Shown here: piece after piece, positions 35,160-42,981 of the stretch | Position numbering within the stretch: position 1 is the first letter of the stretch | How the letters are laid out: every line of letters begins with the position of its first letter | Assembly: GCA_017516485.1 (NCBI GenBank) | Contig: JAFXCH010000041.1 | Coordinates: forward strand, 1-42,981 | Direction: 5' to 3' | DNA length: 42,981 bases | DNA from: Clostridia bacterium | Lineage (GTDB): Bacteria > Bacillota > Clostridia > Oscillospirales > Acutalibacteraceae | Made by a program: the position numbers and the translations under genes | The notes under the pieces: model-generated | Databases searched by the model: none | The model's input: only the letters and a program-made list of their open reading frames with translations | What the model was told of the DNA's origin: nothing

Positions 35160-35402
35160 ATGGAGTATTTGGAAACAATCTTTAATTACATCGTGGAATT
35201 GATTGGTGATTTTGATTTCACGGAAATCATCAGCAATTTTGTTGATGCGGTTGAGCTTATCATTTTTTCAAAAAAAGCTTCCATTTTTTATATTCCTCCT
35301 GTAAATAAAAAAGTCGGATTACAAGGCGTAATCCGACAAAAGTACAAATTTATACCGCTGAAAACGGTACTGAAAACTTTGTCCTTTTGCCTGAGAGATT
35401 AG
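35160..35402 (+). CDS. Short ORF with amphipathic helices, 3' part probably not original
   Basis: AAGGAG (35145-35150) lies nine bases before the ATG. The first 35 residues are a convincing hydrophobic/amphipathic sequence (MEYLETIFNYIVELIGDFDF, then TEIISNFVDAVELIIF). After about residue 37 the frame runs through the terminator and aptamer of the opposite-strand riboswitch (KKASIFYIPPVNKK onward), so that part is not a designed protein. I read this as the start of a gene whose remainder was lost at a junction near 35262-35275. The start resembles the N-terminal helices of the exported enzymes in this window, not an FtsX permease. The true product is unknown. Confidence 0.4.
   Translation: MEYLETIFNYIVELIGDFDFTEIISNFVDAVELIIFSKKASIFYIPPVNKKVGLQGVIRQKYKFIPLKTVLKTLSFCLRD
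35186..35284 (-). pseudogene. Truncated start of the gene once controlled by the glycine riboswitch
   Basis: On the minus strand, AGGAGG (35300-35295) is followed ten bases later by ATG 35284 and MEAFFEKMIS, then an apparently random sequence that ends after 32 codons at 35186. Position and ribosome binding site are as expected for the first gene downstream of a glycine riboswitch, commonly a sodium-coupled amino acid symporter or gcv gene. Only about the first eight to ten codons look like a natural start. It overlaps the plus-strand ORF at 35160 head to head, so both appear truncated at the same point. Confidence 0.4.
35303..35337 (-). terminator. Intrinsic terminator of the glycine riboswitch expression platform
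   Basis: Stem GTCGGATTAC (35313-35322) with GTAATCCGAC (35328-35337), loop AAGGC. On the minus strand it is followed by TTTTTTATT. It lies between the riboswitch aptamers and the ribosome binding site at 35300-35295. Confidence 0.8.
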
Positions 35403-35540
35403 CTTTATGCCTTGCCCCTTCGGCACCCAATTTAATGGGATTCTCCAAAGTTATGTCCGTTTGCAGTCCCTTTCCCTTGCGGGAAGCCTGAGAGCGTTAC
35501 TCCTTCGGCAGCGTATGCTTCTTCTGCAAACCTCAACCAT
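35376..35540 (-). promoter_or_regulatory. Tandem glycine riboswitch
   Basis: On the minus strand two aptamers are visible. The 5' one has GCTGCCGAAGGAGTAACGC then CTCTCAGGC (about 35532-35480). The 3' one has GGAGAATCC, then GTGCCGAAGGGGCAAGG and AATCTCTCAGGCAAAAGGAC (about 35447-35379). These are hallmark glycine-aptamer sequences (CCGAAGG...CTCTCAGGCAAAAGGAC). In Firmicutes it usually switches on glycine cleavage or amino acid efflux/uptake genes when glycine is high. Here the expression platform, terminator and ribosome binding site are intact, but the downstream frame is only 32 codons, so the switch appears orphaned. Confidence 0.9.
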
Positions 35541-35618: not shown

Positions 35619-36131
35619 TTATTTCCCCTGTGCAATATATCCGTGTTCCTCTAATGCGCTTTGAATTTTGTCTAAAATCTCCTCGGAATCCGCACGCACG
35701 GTATGGTAGTGATAACCGCCCGTAATGTTCATAAGCTCGGTGGATTTACCGCTTCTGACACCTTCAATAAACTTCTTTATATGAAGGCTTGAAAAGACGT
35801 TAAGCGAAGCCGTCATTTTGCCGTAAACCTTGTGCCGGACGAATACGTCAACTACCGTACCGCCGAGGTTGACGATAGTGTTTAATTCATCCTCGGTTTG
35901 TGCCGTAGTGTGGTACACCTTAAAAACACGCTCTTTTAAGGGCGATTTTTGAATGATGTATCCGTTATGAGTTGCAAGAATGCCGTATCCCGAGCCCTTA
36001 AGTACGCTTATGTCCTGAACGATAATCTGTCTTGACACACCGAATTCTTCGGACAGCTTACCTCCCGAAATTGCTTCATCGGACGATAAAAGAAGGTTGA
36101 CAATTGCCTTTCTTCTGTCAGCGGCTTTCAT
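35619..36131 (-). CDS. niaR: NiaR-type NAD biosynthesis repressor (HTH plus 3H domain)
   Basis: The protein has 170 residues. The N-terminal winged helix-turn-helix (about 1-60) includes GGKLSEEFGVSRQIIVQDISVL. The C-terminal 3H domain (about 70-170) has conserved His residues in RHKVYG, SLHIKKF and GGYHYHTV, the ligand/metal-binding histidines of nicotinic-acid-responsive NiaR. It represses NAD synthesis or niacin uptake genes when niacin is available. It is the last gene of the nadA-nadB-nadC-niaR operon, 12 bases after nadC, with GGGGTGA before the ATG. It therefore probably regulates its own operon through the inverted repeat at 39218-39243. Confidence 0.9.
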   Translation of the reverse strand: MKAADRRKAIVNLLLSSDEAISGGKLSEEFGVSRQIIVQDISVLKGSGYGILATHNGYIIQKSPLKERVFKVYHTTAQTEDELNTIVNLGGTVVDVFVRHKVYGKMTASLNVFSSLHIKKFIEGVRSGKSTELMNITGGYHYHTVRADSEEILDKIQSALEEHGYIAQGK

Positions 36132-36143
36132 TAATTCACCCCT

Positions 36144-36995
36144 TTATACAGTGTGTAAGTTCTTAAGCGAGAGGTCTAAAATGGGAGATGAATGTGTAAG
36201 AGCTCCGCTCGAAATATAGTCTACACCAATATCGGTAAGCTTTGCAATGTTTTCTTTCGTAACGTTTCCGCTGCACTCGGTTTCAGCCTTGCCTGCGCAC
36301 AGCTCAACAGCCTTTTTCATATCTTCAACGCTCATATTGTCCAGCATAATAATATCTGCACCTGCATCAAGTGCTTCTTTGAGCATTTCAAGGCTTTCAA
36401 CTTCAATTTCGATTTTGCGGACAAAGGGAGCGTATTCCTTTGCCATTGCAACCGCCTGCTTTACACCGCCTGCAGCACCGATGTGATTATCCTTGAGGAG
36501 AATACCGTCGCTGAGATTGAAGCGGTGGTTGTAGCCTCCGCCGACCTTAACCGCGTACTTTTCAAAAATTCGCATACCGGGTGTTGTTTTACGGGTGTCA
36601 AGAAGCTTGGTGGCTGTACCCTCAAGCATATCGGCAACTGTGCGAGTATACGTTGCAATGCCGCTCATACGCTGTAAAAAGTTCAGCGCAGTTCTTTCAC
36701 CGGAAAGAAGCACTCGTATATCGCCTCTGACAAGGCCTATTTTTTGCCCGTTTTTAACCGCATCGCCGTCCTGAACAAAAAATATAACTTCTGTTTTATC
36801 GTCAAGAAGCTCAAACACTCTTTTGAAAACCTCAAGACCCGCAATTATGCCGTCTTCCTTACATATAAGGTCAACCTCGCCGAGCTGATAGCAGCGCATA
36901 ACGGAGTTTGTGGAAATATCCTCACTCGTTATATCCTCTTTGAGCGCATACATAATAAGGTCGTCTGCGTTTAATTTCATACTGATATTATTCAT
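36144..36995 (-). CDS. nadC: Nicotinate-nucleotide pyrophosphorylase (carboxylating)
   Basis: The protein has 283 residues from the ATG at 36995, chosen because AGGAG lies ten bases upstream (37010-37006) within the end of nadB; the two genes overlap by eight bases. Quinolinate phosphoribosyltransferase signatures are present: ALKEDITSEDIS at the N-terminus, LSGERTALNFLQRMSGIATYT, LLDTRKTTPGMRIFEKYAV, GGYNHRFNLSDGILLKDNHI, and IEIEVESLEM followed by ADIIMLDNMS. It converts quinolinate and PRPP to nicotinate mononucleotide. Length and motifs are normal. Confidence 0.95.
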   Translation of the reverse strand: MNNISMKLNADDLIMYALKEDITSEDISTNSVMRCYQLGEVDLICKEDGIIAGLEVFKRVFELLDDKTEVIFFVQDGDAVKNGQKIGLVRGDIRVLLSGERTALNFLQRMSGIATYTRTVADMLEGTATKLLDTRKTTPGMRIFEKYAVKVGGGYNHRFNLSDGILLKDNHIGAAGGVKQAVAMAKEYAPFVRKIEIEVESLEMLKEALDAGADIIMLDNMSVEDMKKAVELCAGKAETECSGNVTKENIAKLTDIGVDYISSGALTHSSPILDLSLKNLHTV

Positions 36996-38262
36996 GGCTG
37001 TTTTTCTCCTTTTCAATAGCCGTTAAAACCGCTTCCTTGTATTTTTCTGCGTACCCGTCATACTGACGTGCATCTATAGTTATTTCGTTTTCATTTTCAA
37101 GCTCCGTGTAATCAGCCGAAATGTGGTTAGCTGCTCTTTTGGCAAAGACCAGACTTTCAAGCAATGAATTGCTTGCCAATCTGTTGCGCCCGTGAACACC
37201 GTTATAGGCAGTTTCGCCGACAGCGTATAAATGCTCCATTGAAGTTTTGCTGTATCGGTCAACCTCAATACCGCCCATAAAATAGTGCTGCGACGGCACG
37301 ACAGGAATCGGCTCCTTGGTTACGTCATAGCCTTCGTCAAGACAATGGCTGTAAATGTTCGGGAAGTGTGTTTTTATTTCCTCTTCGGGGATAGGAGCCA
37401 TAGAAAGCCAAACGTGCTCGGTGCCTTCTTTTTTCATTTCATCAAAAATGGCTTTGGCAACAACGTCACGCGGCAGAAGCTCGTTGACAAATCTTTCACC
37501 CTTGGAGTTGAGCAGTATTGCGCCTTCGCCACGTACCGACTCGGAAATCAGAAACTCACGTCCGTGCTTTTTTGTATAAAGAGTTGTGGGATGAATCTGT
37601 ATGTAATCAATGTGCTGCAGTTTGATACCGTATTTGAGCGCAAGAGCAAGGGCGTCACCCGTCAGATGACGGTAGTTTGTGGAGTGCTTGAACAAGCCGC
37701 CGATACCGCCTGTTGCAAGCACGGTATAATCTGCCGTTACGCAGGAGTATTCACCGTTTTTATCGTGGCCGATAATACCACGGCAGATATTATCCCTGCA
37801 AATCAAATCGACCATTGTGAAATTCTCAATGAGCGTTATGTTGGGTTTGCTTCTTGCGGTTTCAAGCAGGGTGGAGGTTATTTCTTTGCCCGTTTCGTCC
37901 TCGTGAAAAAGGATTCTCGGCTTGGAATGAGCACCCTCACGCGTGTAAGTAAAAGCTTCGCCGTCCTTTTCAAAGCGAACTCCGAAGGAAACGAGGTCAC
38001 CGATTATTTCACGTGATGAGCGTATCATAATTTCAACGGAATCTGTGTTGTTCTCGTAGTGACCCGCCTTCATCGTGTCCTCGAAAAAGGATTTGTAATC
38101 ATCTTCGTCACGAAGAACACAAATGCCGCCCTGAGCAAGGAAGGAATCACTTTTGGGGGCTTCGTTTTTGGTTACAACCGTTATTTTTTTATCTTCAGGA
38201 AGGTTGAGTGCGCAGTAAAGACCTGCAACACCGCAGCCTACAATAATAATATCTGTATTCAT
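36988..38262 (-). CDS. nadB: L-aspartate oxidase
   Basis: The protein has 424 residues from the ATG at 38262, one base after the nadA stop, so translation is probably coupled. The FAD-binding start is DIIIVGCGVAGLYCALNLP. Other family features are SDSFLAQGGICVLRDEDD, HSKPRILFHEDETG, VLATGGIGGLFKHSTN, LQHIDYIQIHPTTLY, ISESVRGEGAILLN, HYFMGGIEVD and GVHGRNRLASNSLLE. It oxidises L-aspartate to iminoaspartate for NadA. It is shorter than the roughly 540-residue E. coli enzyme and lacks most of the C-terminal helical domain; short forms are, as far as I recall, usual in Clostridia. Confidence 0.95.
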   Translation of the reverse strand: MNTDIIIVGCGVAGLYCALNLPEDKKITVVTKNEAPKSDSFLAQGGICVLRDEDDYKSFFEDTMKAGHYENNTDSVEIMIRSSREIIGDLVSFGVRFEKDGEAFTYTREGAHSKPRILFHEDETGKEITSTLLETARSKPNITLIENFTMVDLICRDNICRGIIGHDKNGEYSCVTADYTVLATGGIGGLFKHSTNYRHLTGDALALALKYGIKLQHIDYIQIHPTTLYTKKHGREFLISESVRGEGAILLNSKGERFVNELLPRDVVAKAIFDEMKKEGTEHVWLSMAPIPEEEIKTHFPNIYSHCLDEGYDVTKEPIPVVPSQHYFMGGIEVDRYSKTSMEHLYAVGETAYNGVHGRNRLASNSLLESLVFAKRAANHISADYTELENENEITIDARQYDGYAEKYKEAVLTAIEKEKNSHE

Positions 38263-38263
38263 T

Positions 38264-39163
38264 TCACTTCGCAAGCTCCAACATTTTTTCAAGAGGTAAA
38301 AGGGCACCCGTGCGGATGGATTCATCAACACTTACTTCGTTATTCTCTGCCTGAATAACCGATAATATGGCTTCAAGCGTGTTTAGCTTCATATCGGCAC
38401 AGCAGGGATGAGGCTCGGGATAATAGAAGCGTTTGTTCGGGTTATCCGTTATCAGCTTATAATTTACACCGTCTTCGGTACAGATTATAAATTCATCCGA
38501 CTCACTCTTGGCGGCGTAAGCTATTATATCAGCCGTGCTTCCGATGTAATCCGACAAACCGAGAATGTCGGCTTCGCATTCGGGGTGTGACAGAATTTTT
38601 GCAGCGGGGTGCTTGGCTTTTTCGTTTTTTAGCTGCTCGGCGGTAATCTTTGCGTGAATGGGGCAGCAGCCGTCGTTCAGTATTATATTTTTCTCGGGAA
38701 CTTGTTCGGCAACGAAGCGGCCGAGGTTTTTGTCGGGAATGAAGAAAATATTTTTGTTCGGAAGTGCCTTTACGATTTTTACCGCATTTGATGAAGTAAC
38801 GCAAACATCGCTTTTGCTTTTAAGCTTTGCGGTTGAATTAATATAGCACACAACGGCAAGGTCATCGTACTGCTTTCGCATTTTATCAATCGTTTCCTCT
38901 GATGCCATATGTGCCATAGGACAGTCTGCGGTTATTTCGGGCATAAGCACCTTTTTATCGGGGTTGAGCAGCTTTGCACTTTCTCCCATAAAGTATACGC
39001 CGCAGAAAACAATAATGTCAGCCGTGCTCTGCTTGGCAATTTTGGCGAGATAGAAGGAATCTCCCACATAATCAGCCGCTTCCTGTACCTCGGCAGGTGC
39101 ATAGTAATGAGCGAGAATGACAGCGTTCTTCTCTTTCTTTAATCGTTCAATCTGACTTTTCAT
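38264..39163 (-). CDS. nadA: Quinolinate synthase A
   Basis: The protein has 299 residues. The N-terminus is QIERLKKEKNAVILAHYYAP, followed by VQEAADYVGDS. The three iron-sulfur cluster cysteines are expected in IIVFCGVYFMGE, SHPECEAD and EPHPCCADM. ITADCPMAHMA and YINSTAKLKSKSDVCVTSSN are further family motifs. It condenses iminoaspartate with dihydroxyacetone phosphate to quinolinate and needs a 4Fe-4S cluster. It is the first gene of the nad operon; GAGG precedes the ATG at 39163, and the promoter with operator lies 40-80 bases upstream. Confidence 0.95.
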   Translation of the reverse strand: MKSQIERLKKEKNAVILAHYYAPAEVQEAADYVGDSFYLAKIAKQSTADIIVFCGVYFMGESAKLLNPDKKVLMPEITADCPMAHMASEETIDKMRKQYDDLAVVCYINSTAKLKSKSDVCVTSSNAVKIVKALPNKNIFFIPDKNLGRFVAEQVPEKNIILNDGCCPIHAKITAEQLKNEKAKHPAAKILSHPECEADILGLSDYIGSTADIIAYAAKSESDEFIICTEDGVNYKLITDNPNKRFYYPEPHPCCADMKLNTLEAILSVIQAENNEVSVDESIRTGALLPLEKMLELAK

Positions 39164-39830: not shown

Positions 39831-40103
39831 TTAATTATATTCTTCGCAAAATGCATCTAATGCAAAACCTGCACCATGTCTAAAGCCTGTTTTGTAGCTG
39901 TCAAAGTCAATGTCTCCTGAGATGATTCCCCAAAGATCAGCATACTCCAAAAACAGCTTTTTCTCGCCGCCTGTGAGTTTCGTCCTGAGTTCGGTTTCTA
40001 TCTCACAAAGTCTGCTGAAGTCTTTTTGAAAGTCTGAATTTTGCTTGATATTGCGCATTTGCGGTTCGATGTTGCCGTAATAAAAATCTTCAATGAATGA
40101 CAT
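39831..40103 (-). CDS. DUF6809-family small protein
   Basis: The protein has 90 residues starting MSFIEDFYYGNIEPQMRNIK, the typical opening of this small family found in Clostridia, often on mobile elements. It is a predicted helical cytosolic protein (IETELRTKLTGGEKKLFLEY, then GFRHGAGFALDAFCEE). GGTGAT lies four bases before the ATG at 40103. An alternative ATG at 40115 overlaps the stop of the preceding gene (TAATG), so the two are coupled in either case. The function is unknown. Confidence 0.7.
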   Translation of the reverse strand: MSFIEDFYYGNIEPQMRNIKQNSDFQKDFSRLCEIETELRTKLTGGEKKLFLEYADLWGIISGDIDFDSYKTGFRHGAGFALDAFCEEYN

Positions 40104-40114
40104 ATGTATCACCA

Positions 40115-40627
40115 TTAAAGCACAGTGTCAACCGGCGTGATTTCTGTTTCACCGGGCATGCGATAGCCTATCGGTTTACCTAAAACCTTAAACGCATCCT
40201 TGGGCAGAAAAACATCCTCATACATTTCGTTGAACACAAGGCGAACTATATTTCCCGGACGAGGGTGCAAATATGCAATGGTAACTTCACCGGCAAATTC
40301 GATAAGAGCGAAACCGACACGAGGATGTTTATCGAGGTTCACTTTGACAATAGAGCCCATAGGAATGTGAGAGTATGCTCGATCACAAACAACAAACTCG
40401 TTTTCGCCTAACTGCTTTTTGATTTCGGATGGGTCAGCGAGATAGAAGATATTACCGCCTTCGACTATGAATTCTTCCATCGAACCGGGTTCAGTACACT
40501 CGAAAATCGCTTTAGCGAACGGATATGCAAGCGGATACCGTTTCGAGTGGTCAACTGCTTCAGGTGGCAGTTGATATTTTTCAAACAGTTCATCCTTGAT
40601 CTCTTGCCAAGTTTTTTCGTTTTTCAT
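40115..40627 (-). CDS. Unknown protein, 170 residues, mobile-element type
   Basis: AAGGATGA lies before the ATG at 40627. The N-terminus is polar and helical (TWQEIKDELFEKYQLPPEAV). The second half is beta-rich (FVVCDRAYSHIPMGSIVKVN, FALIEFAGEVTIAYLHPRPG). It ends with GYRMPGETEITPVDTVL. There is no signal peptide or membrane segment. The beta-rich part vaguely recalls an S24/LexA-like fold, but I see no catalytic Ser-Lys pair. It is in a two-gene operon with the DUF6809 gene. Confidence 0.65.
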   Translation of the reverse strand: MKNEKTWQEIKDELFEKYQLPPEAVDHSKRYPLAYPFAKAIFECTEPGSMEEFIVEGGNIFYLADPSEIKKQLGENEFVVCDRAYSHIPMGSIVKVNLDKHPRVGFALIEFAGEVTIAYLHPRPGNIVRLVFNEMYEDVFLPKDAFKVLGKPIGYRMPGETEITPVDTVL

Positions 40628-40651
40628 TAAATCATCCTTTCGGCATTATTC

Positions 40652-40668
40652 GGAATTGTTGTAATTCC
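40652..40668. promoter_or_regulatory. Small palindrome upstream of the unknown gene
   Basis: GGAATT (40652-40657) and AATTCC (40663-40668) with a five-base centre lie 25 bases before the start at 40627. This could be an operator or a weak leader hairpin. Confidence 0.3.
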
Positions 40669-40791
40669 TTTCATAAATATTTTACCGAATAGGAAATATA
40701 ACGTCACGTTCAAAAGCGCACGATCTTTAACGCGAATAACGAAATATGGCCGTCTATAGCGCACAAAACTATATTGTCAAAACAATTTTCT

Positions 40792-40838
40792 CTCCCCAAG
40801 TGGTAGATTTAAAGTATCACTTTCGGGAGGGATTTTTT
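40792..40838 (+). promoter_or_regulatory. Hairpin sequestering the ribosome binding site of the recombinase remnant
   Basis: CTCCC (40792-40796) plus AAGTG and GTA pair with TAT, CACTT and GGGAG (40825-40829), with a small internal mismatch. The 3' arm contains the ribosome binding site GGGAGG, followed by ATTTTTTAT. It could act as a translational switch or a terminator. Confidence 0.5.
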
Positions 40839-40922
40839 ATGGTTTACGGGTATATCCGTGTGGCGAGCAAAATCATAGTAAATTGCAGCAATCATATTGA
40901 AGAAAAAATTTGTATTTTATAA
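40839..40922 (+). pseudogene. Truncated N-terminus of a serine recombinase (resolvase/invertase)
   Basis: ATG 40839 encodes MVYGYIRVASK, the typical start of resolvase/invertase-family serine recombinases (YGYIRVS, where the catalytic Ser normally follows). Here the sequence diverges after residue 11 and ends at TAA 40920-40922 after 27 residues. The catalytic core and DNA-binding domain are absent. The ribosome binding site GGGAGG is nine bases upstream. It is a remnant of a mobile element, consistent with the tRNA scar and the DUF6809 gene nearby. Confidence 0.6.
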
Positions 40923-40931
40923 GACTTATAA

Positions 40932-40960
40932 TTGACTTGTGTTGTGAAAAATGGTAAATT
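40932..40960 (+). promoter_or_regulatory. Promoter of the structured leader and surface-protein gene
   Basis: TTGACT (40932-40937), a 17-bp spacer and TAAATT (40955-40960). The transcript would begin near 40966, at the base of the large leader hairpin. Confidence 0.6.
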
Positions 40961-40964
40961 AATC

Positions 40965-41112
40965 TTGCAACACAATTTATCATACTTCCATAGGTGTACG
41001 TTTTGGTAAAAACGTATGTTTTGTTGTCATCCTGTGGAAGGTGAATTGTGTTGCAACAATAGCCGAAGTAGCGTTTTTCGTGCGCAGCTTCGGCTGCGCA
41101 TTTTTTATTTTT
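40965..41112 (+). ncRNA. Structured leader RNA with terminator/antiterminator, unknown class
   Basis: The outer stem is TTGCAACACAATT (40965-40977) with AATTGTGTTGCAA (41044-41056), 13 perfect pairs. An inner stem CTTCCATAGG (40985-40994) pairs with CCTGTGGAAG (41031-41040) with one mismatch region. An apical hairpin is ACGTTTT...AAAACGT (about 40999-41014). Then AGCCGAAG (41061-41068) is the exact complement of CTTCGGCT (41088-41095), which lies inside the terminator stem TGCGCAGC/GCTGCGCA (41081-41088, 41093-41100) followed by TTTTTTATTTTT. The two helices exclude each other. This fits a transcriptional attenuator or riboswitch of a class I do not recognise; a free roughly 145-nt small RNA is also possible. 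Confidence 0.65.
41081..41112 (+). terminator. Intrinsic terminator directly before the surface-protein gene
   Basis: TGCGCAGC, loop TTCG, GCTGCGCA (41081-41100), then TTTTTTATTTTT. GGAGG (41113-41117) follows at once, and the ATG is at 41125, so the terminator must be avoided for the gene to be expressed. Confidence 0.9.
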
Positions 41113-41124
41113 GGAGGTATACAG

Positions 41125-42981
41125 ATGAAAAGGACCATACAGAAACTTATTTCGTTTCTACTTGCTGTAGTTACAATAATTGCTACAGCGCCTTTGTCAG
41201 GTTTAGTTAGATTAGATTTTCCGTCATTCAAATTTTGGGCTTCTGCTGAAGAAAATGAAGAACACAATGAAATTGATTATTCATATTTGACTCCTAATCA
41301 ATATATGACCAAAATACTGCTCAACTATAACTATTCTGGTGGAGCAAGTCCTGTAGATATGAACGATGATACAGTTCCCCAAGCTCAGTTAAAGTATTGG
41401 CTTGATACTTCTAAGGCGAGCACAGCTCGCTTATTAAGAAATGAGATAAACTCAAATTCGGGTTTCATCGATAGTGTTGTTGCTTGGGAAGTGTTAACTT
41501 TTGATCCATCAGATGAATATGAAAATATTCTTAATGAAGAAGATTACTATGTCACAATACTGTTGAGTATTCTTGATGTTCAATTAAACGACAGCGAGTT
41601 TTTGGATGCGTGGAATTGCTCTACCAACAAAACAATACTTTCTCTTTCTAAAAGCACAACAAAATTCATGAAAGAAACCCTTTCTATAGATGTTGAAGAT
41701 TTGCAAAATATAAATGTTGAAGATTTATCTGAGGATGAATTTAATTCTCTTATGTCTTCTGTAGGAAAAACTATCGAAGCGAAAAATCTTTACACACAAT
41801 TAGGCGAAAACGTTAAACTGATTAATGACATTTCAAAGACCTGCACATCTGTTTACGATATAATAAAAACTGTATCAACATATTCTCAAATTGCCGATTT
41901 AAATAGTGCTGTTGAATCCGTTCTTAAAACCATATATGACAATTGTCCTGATTCTACACCAATGAAAAACGCTGCAAAGAAAGTTTATAATATATGTAGT
42001 AAACAAATGACTCAGGCTATGTTTGCATATCTTGAAACACAGGATGCAATAATTAATACTGCGTTTAAGTATTGTGTTGGAAAAGTATGGGATTATGCAA
42101 TTGAAGGTGCATTAGGTTCTTTAGGAACAGGGTTTAAATTGGGTCAAGCAATAGGAACGGCAATTTCTAATTTTTGTTTTTCAACTGAAGCAATTATCGA
42201 GCAATATTATGTACTTGATGCAGTGGTAAAATTTGAAGATATTATGGTTGCTACTGTTAATTCTTTAGCAGAAAGTTACAAAGAGGATGAAAGCTCGGAA
42301 AATGCTGATAACTTTATGAAATCAGTCGAATTACTGTTTTCTGTTTATGATTTGGGATGTGATTATACATTAGCCTTTGCCACAACAGCAAGAAGCAATG
42401 GTCTTTATAACACAATTAAATCATGGTTTGGAAAGAGTGAAACACTTGAGTCATATAAAGAAGCAACTTCATCAATAAAGACAACGATGGGTCTTATAAA
42501 AAATACGCTGACAAACCTTGAAGGATACCGTTGGTATTACGAATATGATGCACCGTCAGGTTATGTGGCATATTTTGAACCGCCTATTTTAACACCTGCA
42601 TATTCTAAAACAGAGGAAATAGTAAATATAGAACCGATAATTATGCCTGAAATTGAATCTGGTGCCATTTTGACCTATAAACAAAAGCAAGATAAAACTA
42701 TTGTTATTACTGGATGCAATTCTTCGGCTGTTGGACAAATTAATATACCGAAAGAAATTGGTGGATTCCCAGTAATAGAAATTTCATCATTTTCTTTCAA
42801 AAATTGTACGGGTATTACATATATTTCAACAGATAGTGCATTAAAAACAATCGAAAGTTCTGCATTCTATAATTGTAAAAATCTTTCAGAGATAAATTTG
42901 AATAGCGGGCTTGAAGCAATTTATGAGCGAGCTTTTTATGGAACAGCAATAGAAGAAGTAACTATACCAAACACAGTCACA
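41125..42981 (+). CDS. Exported BspA-like leucine-rich-repeat surface protein (3' truncated by window end)
   Basis: The frame is open for 619 codons to the end of the window. GGAGG lies seven bases before the ATG. The signal peptide is canonical (MKRTIQKLISFLLAVVTIIA, cleavage near WASA). Residues about 50-480 form a long, mostly helical Asn/Ser/Lys/Glu-rich region with no recognised domain. From about residue 530 leucine-rich repeats of the BspA type begin (GGFPVIEISSFSFKNCTGIT, LKTIESSAFYNCKNLSEINL, GLEAIYERAFYGTAIEEVTI). Such proteins sit on or are released from the cell surface and bind host or microbial partners. Codon use is AT-richer than in the glycan genes, which fits acquisition with the element. 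The anchor region lies outside the window. Confidence 0.85.
   Translation, partial: MKRTIQKLISFLLAVVTIIATAPLSGLVRLDFPSFKFWASAEENEEHNEIDYSYLTPNQYMTKILLNYNYSGGASPVDMNDDTVPQAQLKYWLDTSKASTARLLRNEINSNSGFIDSVVAWEVLTFDPSDEYENILNEEDYYVTILLSILDVQLNDSEFLDAWNCSTNKTILSLSKSTTKFMKETLSIDVEDLQNINVEDLSEDEFNSLMSSVGKTIEAKNLYTQLGENVKLINDISKTCTSVYDIIKTVSTYSQIADLNSAVESVLKTIYDNCPDSTPMKNAAKKVYNICSKQMTQAMFAYLETQDAIINTAFKYCVGKVWDYAIEGALGSLGTGFKLGQAIGTAISNFCFSTEAIIEQYYVLDAVVKFEDIMVATVNSLAESYKEDESSENADNFMKSVELLFSVYDLGCDYTLAFATTARSNGLYNTIKSWFGKSETLESYKEATSSIKTTMGLIKNTLTNLEGYRWYYEYDAPSGYVAYFEPPILTPAYSKTEEIVNIEPIIMPEIESGAILTYKQKQDKTIVITGCNSSAVGQINIPKEIGGFPVIEISSFSFKNCTGITYISTDSALKTIESSAFYNCKNLSEINLNSGLEAIYERAFYGTAIEEVTIPNTVT

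Follow-up and report, generated by a model that had tools for sequence, protein, structure and literature searches.

What controls the gene that closes contig JAFXCH010000041.1 of a Clostridia bacterium (assembly GCA_017516485.1) is the question raised by this locus. The window, i.e. the whole analysed stretch of 42,981 nucleotides (nt), ends within an open reading frame (ORF; 41125-42981, plus strand, running past the window end) whose product looks secreted and contains a BspA-type leucine-rich repeat (LRR) region (PF13306, LRR_5, E 5.8e-16). This ORF is preceded by a structured leader RNA at 40965-41106, which the original prediction described as an attenuator of no recognised class controlling a surface LRR protein. 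Comparison with related genomes suggests that the element is a riboswitch-like transcription attenuator, and we give this reading a probability of about 0.5.

Competing helices of the leader RNA

According to the sequence comparison, the RNA beside the gene contains competing helices formed around three strands, designated X, Y and Z. The predicted promoter, 13-base-pair (bp) outer stem and inner stems were found where they had been placed, by exact complementarity and folding, and the same layout recurs in relatives. The outer stem, P1, is exact over 13 bp at 40965-40977/41044-41056 and extends to 16 bp in the predicted fold. Two inner stems, P2 (40985-40994/41031-41040) and P3, are also predicted. 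The 5′ strand of P3, designated W (40995-41004), pairs with 41009-41018, and the 3′ strand of P3 makes up X (41008-41023). The switch strand Y (41061-41078) contains an eight-base segment, 41061-41068 (AGCCGAAG), exactly complementary to 41088-41095 (CTTCGGCT). This pairing, pointed out in the original prediction, is the antiterminator arm of the window member. Z and the bases following it (41080-41095) comprise both the 5′ arm of the terminator and the 3′ side of the antiterminator. The intrinsic terminator (41080-41106), seen in the family as well, consists of a stem (41080-41088/41093-41101) and a T-run (41101-41106); as claimed, it lies close to the ribosome binding site, the GGAGG read at 41113-41117, which begins 6 nt past the T-run and is followed by the ATG at 41125. 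The mutually exclusive helices expected of an attenuator are thus present upstream of the gene and conserved in relatives. The strand Y has, however, a second conserved partner that the original prediction missed, namely X. As Y sits between P1 and the terminator, the X:Y helix crosses P1 as a pseudoknot.

The leader (40962-41112) folds at −62.7 kcal/mol, compared with −32.7 kcal/mol (standard deviation, sd, 3.66) in 200 dinucleotide shuffles, none of which was as stable (z −8.2). Consensus scanning of positions 40000-42000 alone found promoters at chance level (9 sites with 8.0 expected) and two terminator-like sites with 1.6 expected. The leader is nevertheless not a chance assembly, because the promoter register, P1, P2, P3, the switch strand and the terminator are all kept in relatives.

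These relatives were collected by a BLASTN search with 201 bases, which matched 36 of 117 genomes at E 0.01, own genome included, mostly through the 3′ part. Several of the weakest matches, and hence some of the 36 genomes, were false; the remaining matches share the layout. A seed alignment of 23 sequences, in which RNAalifold recovered P1 and the terminator with double changes in 13 of 22 pairs, was used to build the covariance model R1. The covariation statistics, consisting of shuffles and slides, were counted on alignment A2 of 91 rows, which was fitted to P1, P3 and the terminator contained in R1 and not to X:Y or Y:Z. Six of these rows were excluded from the 112-element set and seven from the hand counts on 84 sequences, being opposite-strand shadows or cut or weak matches. 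Strand-exchange tests cover 109 of the 112 elements, three being unparsable, and the permutations ignore relatedness.

Compensatory changes of both bases occur in at least one sequence in 12 of the 13 pairs of P1, as the original prediction had anticipated for the outer stem. P2 varies in sequence and is self-complementary in each copy: its own strands pair at −23.2 kcal/mol and swapped strands at −10.2 kcal/mol (sd 0.32). Own strands also pair more strongly than permuted ones in W:X (own −12.1, permuted −9.0 kcal/mol, sd 0.24), X:Y (own −15.4, permuted −12.0) and Y:Z (own −15.0, permuted −13.8; sd 0.20-0.24 over the three). The strand X resembles AAAAAYRCAYRCTC and Y resembles GGAGYTATGYRTTTTT. 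X:Y is paired in 95.2% of alignment cells and contains 79 double-change cells, compared with 17.2 (sd 3.2) in shuffled and at most 14 in slid alignments; four of its 14 pairs are invariant. Individual sequences bring together GCTC/GAGC, ACTC/GAGT, GCCC/GGGC, CCTC/GAGG or GCTTC/GAAGC. Y:Z is paired in 94.3% of cells, compared with at most 53.2% when slid, and shows 16 double-change cells where shuffling gives 8.1. The antiterminator helix, for which the original prediction had also called for compensatory changes, is conserved, but its covariation is modest. Strong conservation is also seen in the unpaired bases of the P3 loop and its surroundings (consensus GGTAAAAA). P1, P2 and X:Y make up a conserved, structured domain with covariation, as expected of a riboswitch aptamer.

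The helices suggest how such a switch might work. Formation of P3 would leave Y free to form the antiterminator, giving the ON state, while formation of X:Y would permit the terminator and give the OFF state. The mean helix energies, with the pseudoknot cost excluded, are −12.4 (P3) and −13.3 (antiterminator) against −15.0 (X:Y) and −15.8 kcal/mol (terminator). It follows that termination may be the default, with the signal raising read-through.

Several observations weigh against a riboswitch. The number of Y:Z pairs with a double change is three, close to the shuffled mean of 2.3, and a slide of −1 yields 17 double-change cells compared with 16 in register. X:Y of the window copy is the weakest of 109 (−7.1 kcal/mol); with P3 at −8.4 and the antiterminator at −15.0 kcal/mol (31st strongest of 109), this copy may be biased to ON. 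No start codon was found at 10-40 nt past 43 of the 112 elements; some of these come first in a tandem pair or sit close to the end of a contig, and a leader role for the following gene is therefore not evident in all copies. The adjacent genes are very mixed and give no pointer to a ligand. Finally, a promoter in fixed register and promoters inside tandem pairs are unusual for riboswitches.

The family and its adjacent genes

The promoter of the window copy (40932-40960) has the −35 element TTGACT at 40932-40937, TG at 40952-40953 and the −10 element TAAATT at 40955-40960, in the register common to the family. In 111 upstream regions the TTG of the −35 element is conserved at 99, 91 and 80%, the TG at 93%, and the T, A and last T of the −10 element at 94-96%. 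In 85 of 112 elements the best −10 match ends 3 nt ahead of where the model begins. From these fixed positions, the RNA probably starts at P1 or immediately beside it. The 112 elements include five tandem pairs; four have gaps of 41-62 nt holding promoter-like sequence, and the fifth gap is 147 nt. A survey of high-copy genomes adds further pairs about 45-60 nt apart.

R1 found members of the family in 57 of 147 related genomes and, at the level of the class, in 80 of 291; both counts include the window's own genome. As a specificity control, 299 genomes sampled across the phylum were searched, and the model matched the window's own genome and none of the other 298. Filtering was stricter in these surveys, with no more than 19, 9 and 9 candidates scored per genome, respectively, so that copy numbers are lower bounds; when more candidates were scored in seven genomes, 29, 28, 24, 14, 12, 1 and 0 copies were counted. 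A 28-nt pattern of the 3′ end matched named genome contigs in at least 119 stretches, with many sample names from herbivore gut among the matches listed. The 80 pattern loci listed are labelled as Oscillospiraceae, Ruminococcaceae, Ruminococcus, Eubacterium, Clostridia, Clostridiales, Eubacteriales or Bacillota. They hold 83 sites; at least 10 of the 13 P1 pairs are present in 81 of these, and at least 10 of the 14 X:Y pairs in 80.

The window's genome contains two members, at 105.7 and 79.8 bits; a third candidate (E 0.48) was left uncounted. The second member (L068 1185-1402, G000:C36) has a very strong X:Y (−20.2 kcal/mol); at a distance of 147 nt it is followed by a lipoprotein-like ORF, which has a further promoter-like sequence in front of it. 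Like L030 (1364-1590) and L033 (213-421), both outside the seed and yet found by the model, this second member is divergent: its P3 is a short stem whose loop contains AAAAA, as though offered to the UUUUU of Y. One member each is carried by two human-faecal "Bacteriophage sp." contigs that are unannotated and flagged UNVERIFIED (L219 1451-1610 and L220 1472-1633; 145.1 and 123.8 bits); these records may be bacterial contigs. Six BLAST loci (L021, L031, L032, L034, L035 and L036) were judged by eye to be non-members, and only L021 matched in a later model search at E 0.01 (21.8 bits, at a contig end); L032 resembles a flavin mononucleotide (FMN) riboswitch. R1 also yields weak opposite-strand matches to its own hairpin.

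In 69 of 112 cases the element is followed by a start codon at 10-40 nt, compared with two of 112 on the promoter side. Adjacent proteins were taken as those starting within 60 nt, of at least 50 amino acids (aa) and cut at 480 aa, 74 of them distinct. They include 15 LRR_5 proteins, four AMP-binding enzymes, three CHAP and three ricin-type lectin proteins, two with dockerin and two with HTH_3, as well as single peptidases M23 and S8 and an ABC transporter. The proposed control of a surface LRR protein therefore suits the window gene, while LRR proteins are just part of the candidate regulon. Further labels obtained from NCBIfam, mostly without a displayed cut-off, were adhesin-like LRR and acyl-CoA ligase. 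PADLOC revealed no recurrent defence family among the 74 proteins: in the 25 of 50 families listed, one HTH model had two members and the others one each.

A secretion-like N-terminus was assigned to 45 of the 74 adjacent proteins and to 53 of 291 background ORFs (Fisher p 2.7e-12) by our own hydrophobicity rule. The background ORFs (at least 100 aa, ATG with a Shine-Dalgarno-like sequence, both strands of L100-L179) were selected differently from the adjacent set and may include spurious ones. Acyl-CoA-ligase-like (AMP-binding) genes with similar N-termini stand directly behind the RNA in four genomes (L164, L175, L087 and L097). Their products share 27-52% mutual identity, which indicates that the link between the RNA and this gene type does not stem from recent duplication and hints at a metabolic branch of the regulon.

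Other explanations

The signal acting on the same attenuator might be an RNA-binding protein rather than a small molecule, as is known for PyrR, TRAP and LicT. Protein binding would be compatible with a long paired domain in which few unpaired bases are invariant, and the mixed regulon and the structural evidence for attenuation fit it equally; no candidate protein was found, LoaP having been tested in 10 carriers, and we regard this explanation as doubtful. A LoaP-controlled leader is disfavoured, since none of the 10 carrier genomes reaches the curated cut-off of NF033641. Sub-threshold matches to the LoaP model occur in nine of 10 carriers and in 13 of 14 controls and are probably ordinary NusG.

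It is improbable that the attenuator is fixed or set physically, by temperature, transcription speed or constant partial read-through, with no specific ligand. The mean helix energies of the two arrangements lie within a few kcal/mol, which would allow a thermal or kinetic balance, but the conservation of unpaired bases in the P3 loop and its surroundings appears to exceed what pairing needs. Slightly less probable still is a free-standing small RNA gene acting in trans, for which the position before genes would be secondary. Such a gene would account for the fixed-register promoter and terminator belonging to each copy, for the promoter between tandem copies and for the 43 elements lacking a nearby start codon. 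The strong excess of start codons on the terminator side speaks against it, and the conserved competing pairing of the terminator arm would be purposeless in it.

A palindromic mobile element carrying a promoter and a terminator (a miniature inverted-repeat transposable element) is very improbable. Its near-palindromic hairpin, many copies per genome and tandem copies would be expected, whereas diverged copies preserve pairing by compensatory change, the window copy is unique in its own genome by BLASTN (the next match having E 0.109 over 22 bases), and neither exact pattern matches in viral contigs nor any matches in plasmids were found. Target-site duplications were looked for by eye in the window copy only. 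Ribosome-mediated attenuation through a leader peptide shares the terminator/antiterminator layout and is the least credible explanation, as just 12 of the 112 elements contain a short ORF with a Shine-Dalgarno-like sequence, at differing positions, and an RNA seemingly starting at P1 leaves no space for an upstream binding site.

Relation to known leader RNAs and significance

The riboswitch-like attenuator proposed here was compared with known families in Rfam 15 (4227 models), with the gathering score of each family as the criterion. No match at this score was found on the element in the window, in 20 loci or in 19 loci (some being the same element fetched twice), consistent with the original prediction that no known class could be recognised. 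A lax search of the window leader gave nine matches, the best with E 0.028 and all far under gathering, and that of the L071 element gave two (best E 0.82).

In the pyr (PyrR), TRAP and T-box attenuators an anti-antiterminator, an antiterminator and a terminator are competing helices, as in the present family. The family differs from them in the absence of an Rfam match, in its mixed regulon and in its anti-antiterminator, which is a pseudoknot with a hairpin strand. The crcB (fluoride) and pfl (ZTP) riboswitches, whose pseudoknots and ligands are known, have the involvement of a pseudoknot in common with it. These riboswitches act by transcription termination, their conserved portion overlapping the terminator (PMC2864571). 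The family resembles them as a cis-acting leader in which a conserved domain competes with an intrinsic terminator. Unlike them, it matches neither Rfam family, its pseudoknot joins the P3 3′ strand to the antiterminator strand, and the conserved module includes the promoter.

The cyclic di-GMP (c-di-GMP) riboswitches of Clostridia (PMC6200980) are likewise multi-copy leader RNAs controlling surface and secreted proteins. A c-di-GMP riboswitch is disfavoured by the lack of a gathering-score match. GGDEF domains were found in seven of 10 carriers. None was seen in the window's genome or in two genomes with 29 and 14 copies of the element, respectively; these three assemblies are incomplete. It is unlikely that c-di-GMP is the signal.

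No description of this RNA was recognised in the open-access literature searched, at the level of listings and text passages, and none of the terms sought was found in PMC8632094. A set of 3161 unnamed candidate structured RNAs of human microbiomes, some Clostridial and some with terminators, is described in PMC8040213. The present family resembles it in these respects and also occurs in human faecal contigs; the comparison covers text passages, and overlap with the set is possible. Attenuation by competing helices is a known logic, and within this kind we class the family as new.

Other features of the window lie upstream of the leader. A DUF6809 ORF and a 170-aa ORF with no Pfam match adjoin it on the opposite strand (39831-40627). 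On the same strand, positions 35619-39163 hold what we take from their sequences to be nadA-nadB-nadC-like genes, followed by a 3H/HTH regulator. A glycine riboswitch (RF00504, 67.3 bits) lies at 35369-35458 of the minus strand. Downstream of it, in the ORF list from 34000, the only minus-strand ORFs of at least 80 aa overlap a plus-strand ABC transporter gene, and it may be an orphan.

The family thus represents a conserved regulatory RNA, present in many copies in some genomes, mainly of uncultured Clostridia and many from herbivore guts. Its fixed promoter makes the 5′ end of the RNA predictable, and the work provides a switch with named strands and a candidate regulon of surface LRR proteins, cell-wall hydrolases, lectins and acyl-CoA-ligase-like enzymes. 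It is possible, at somewhat less than even odds, that the family is a riboswitch class new to science, abundant in Clostridia and seen mostly in gut genomes. Its members would all sense a single signal, which is probably not c-di-GMP, and through it would coordinate as many as about 29 accessory genes in one cell, largely genes for secreted proteins. The RNA would then move as a complete promoter-sensor-terminator cassette, with a pseudoknotted anti-antiterminator made from the sensor's own hairpin strand. If the RNA does bind a small molecule, this signal probably governs the deployment of surface and secreted proteins.
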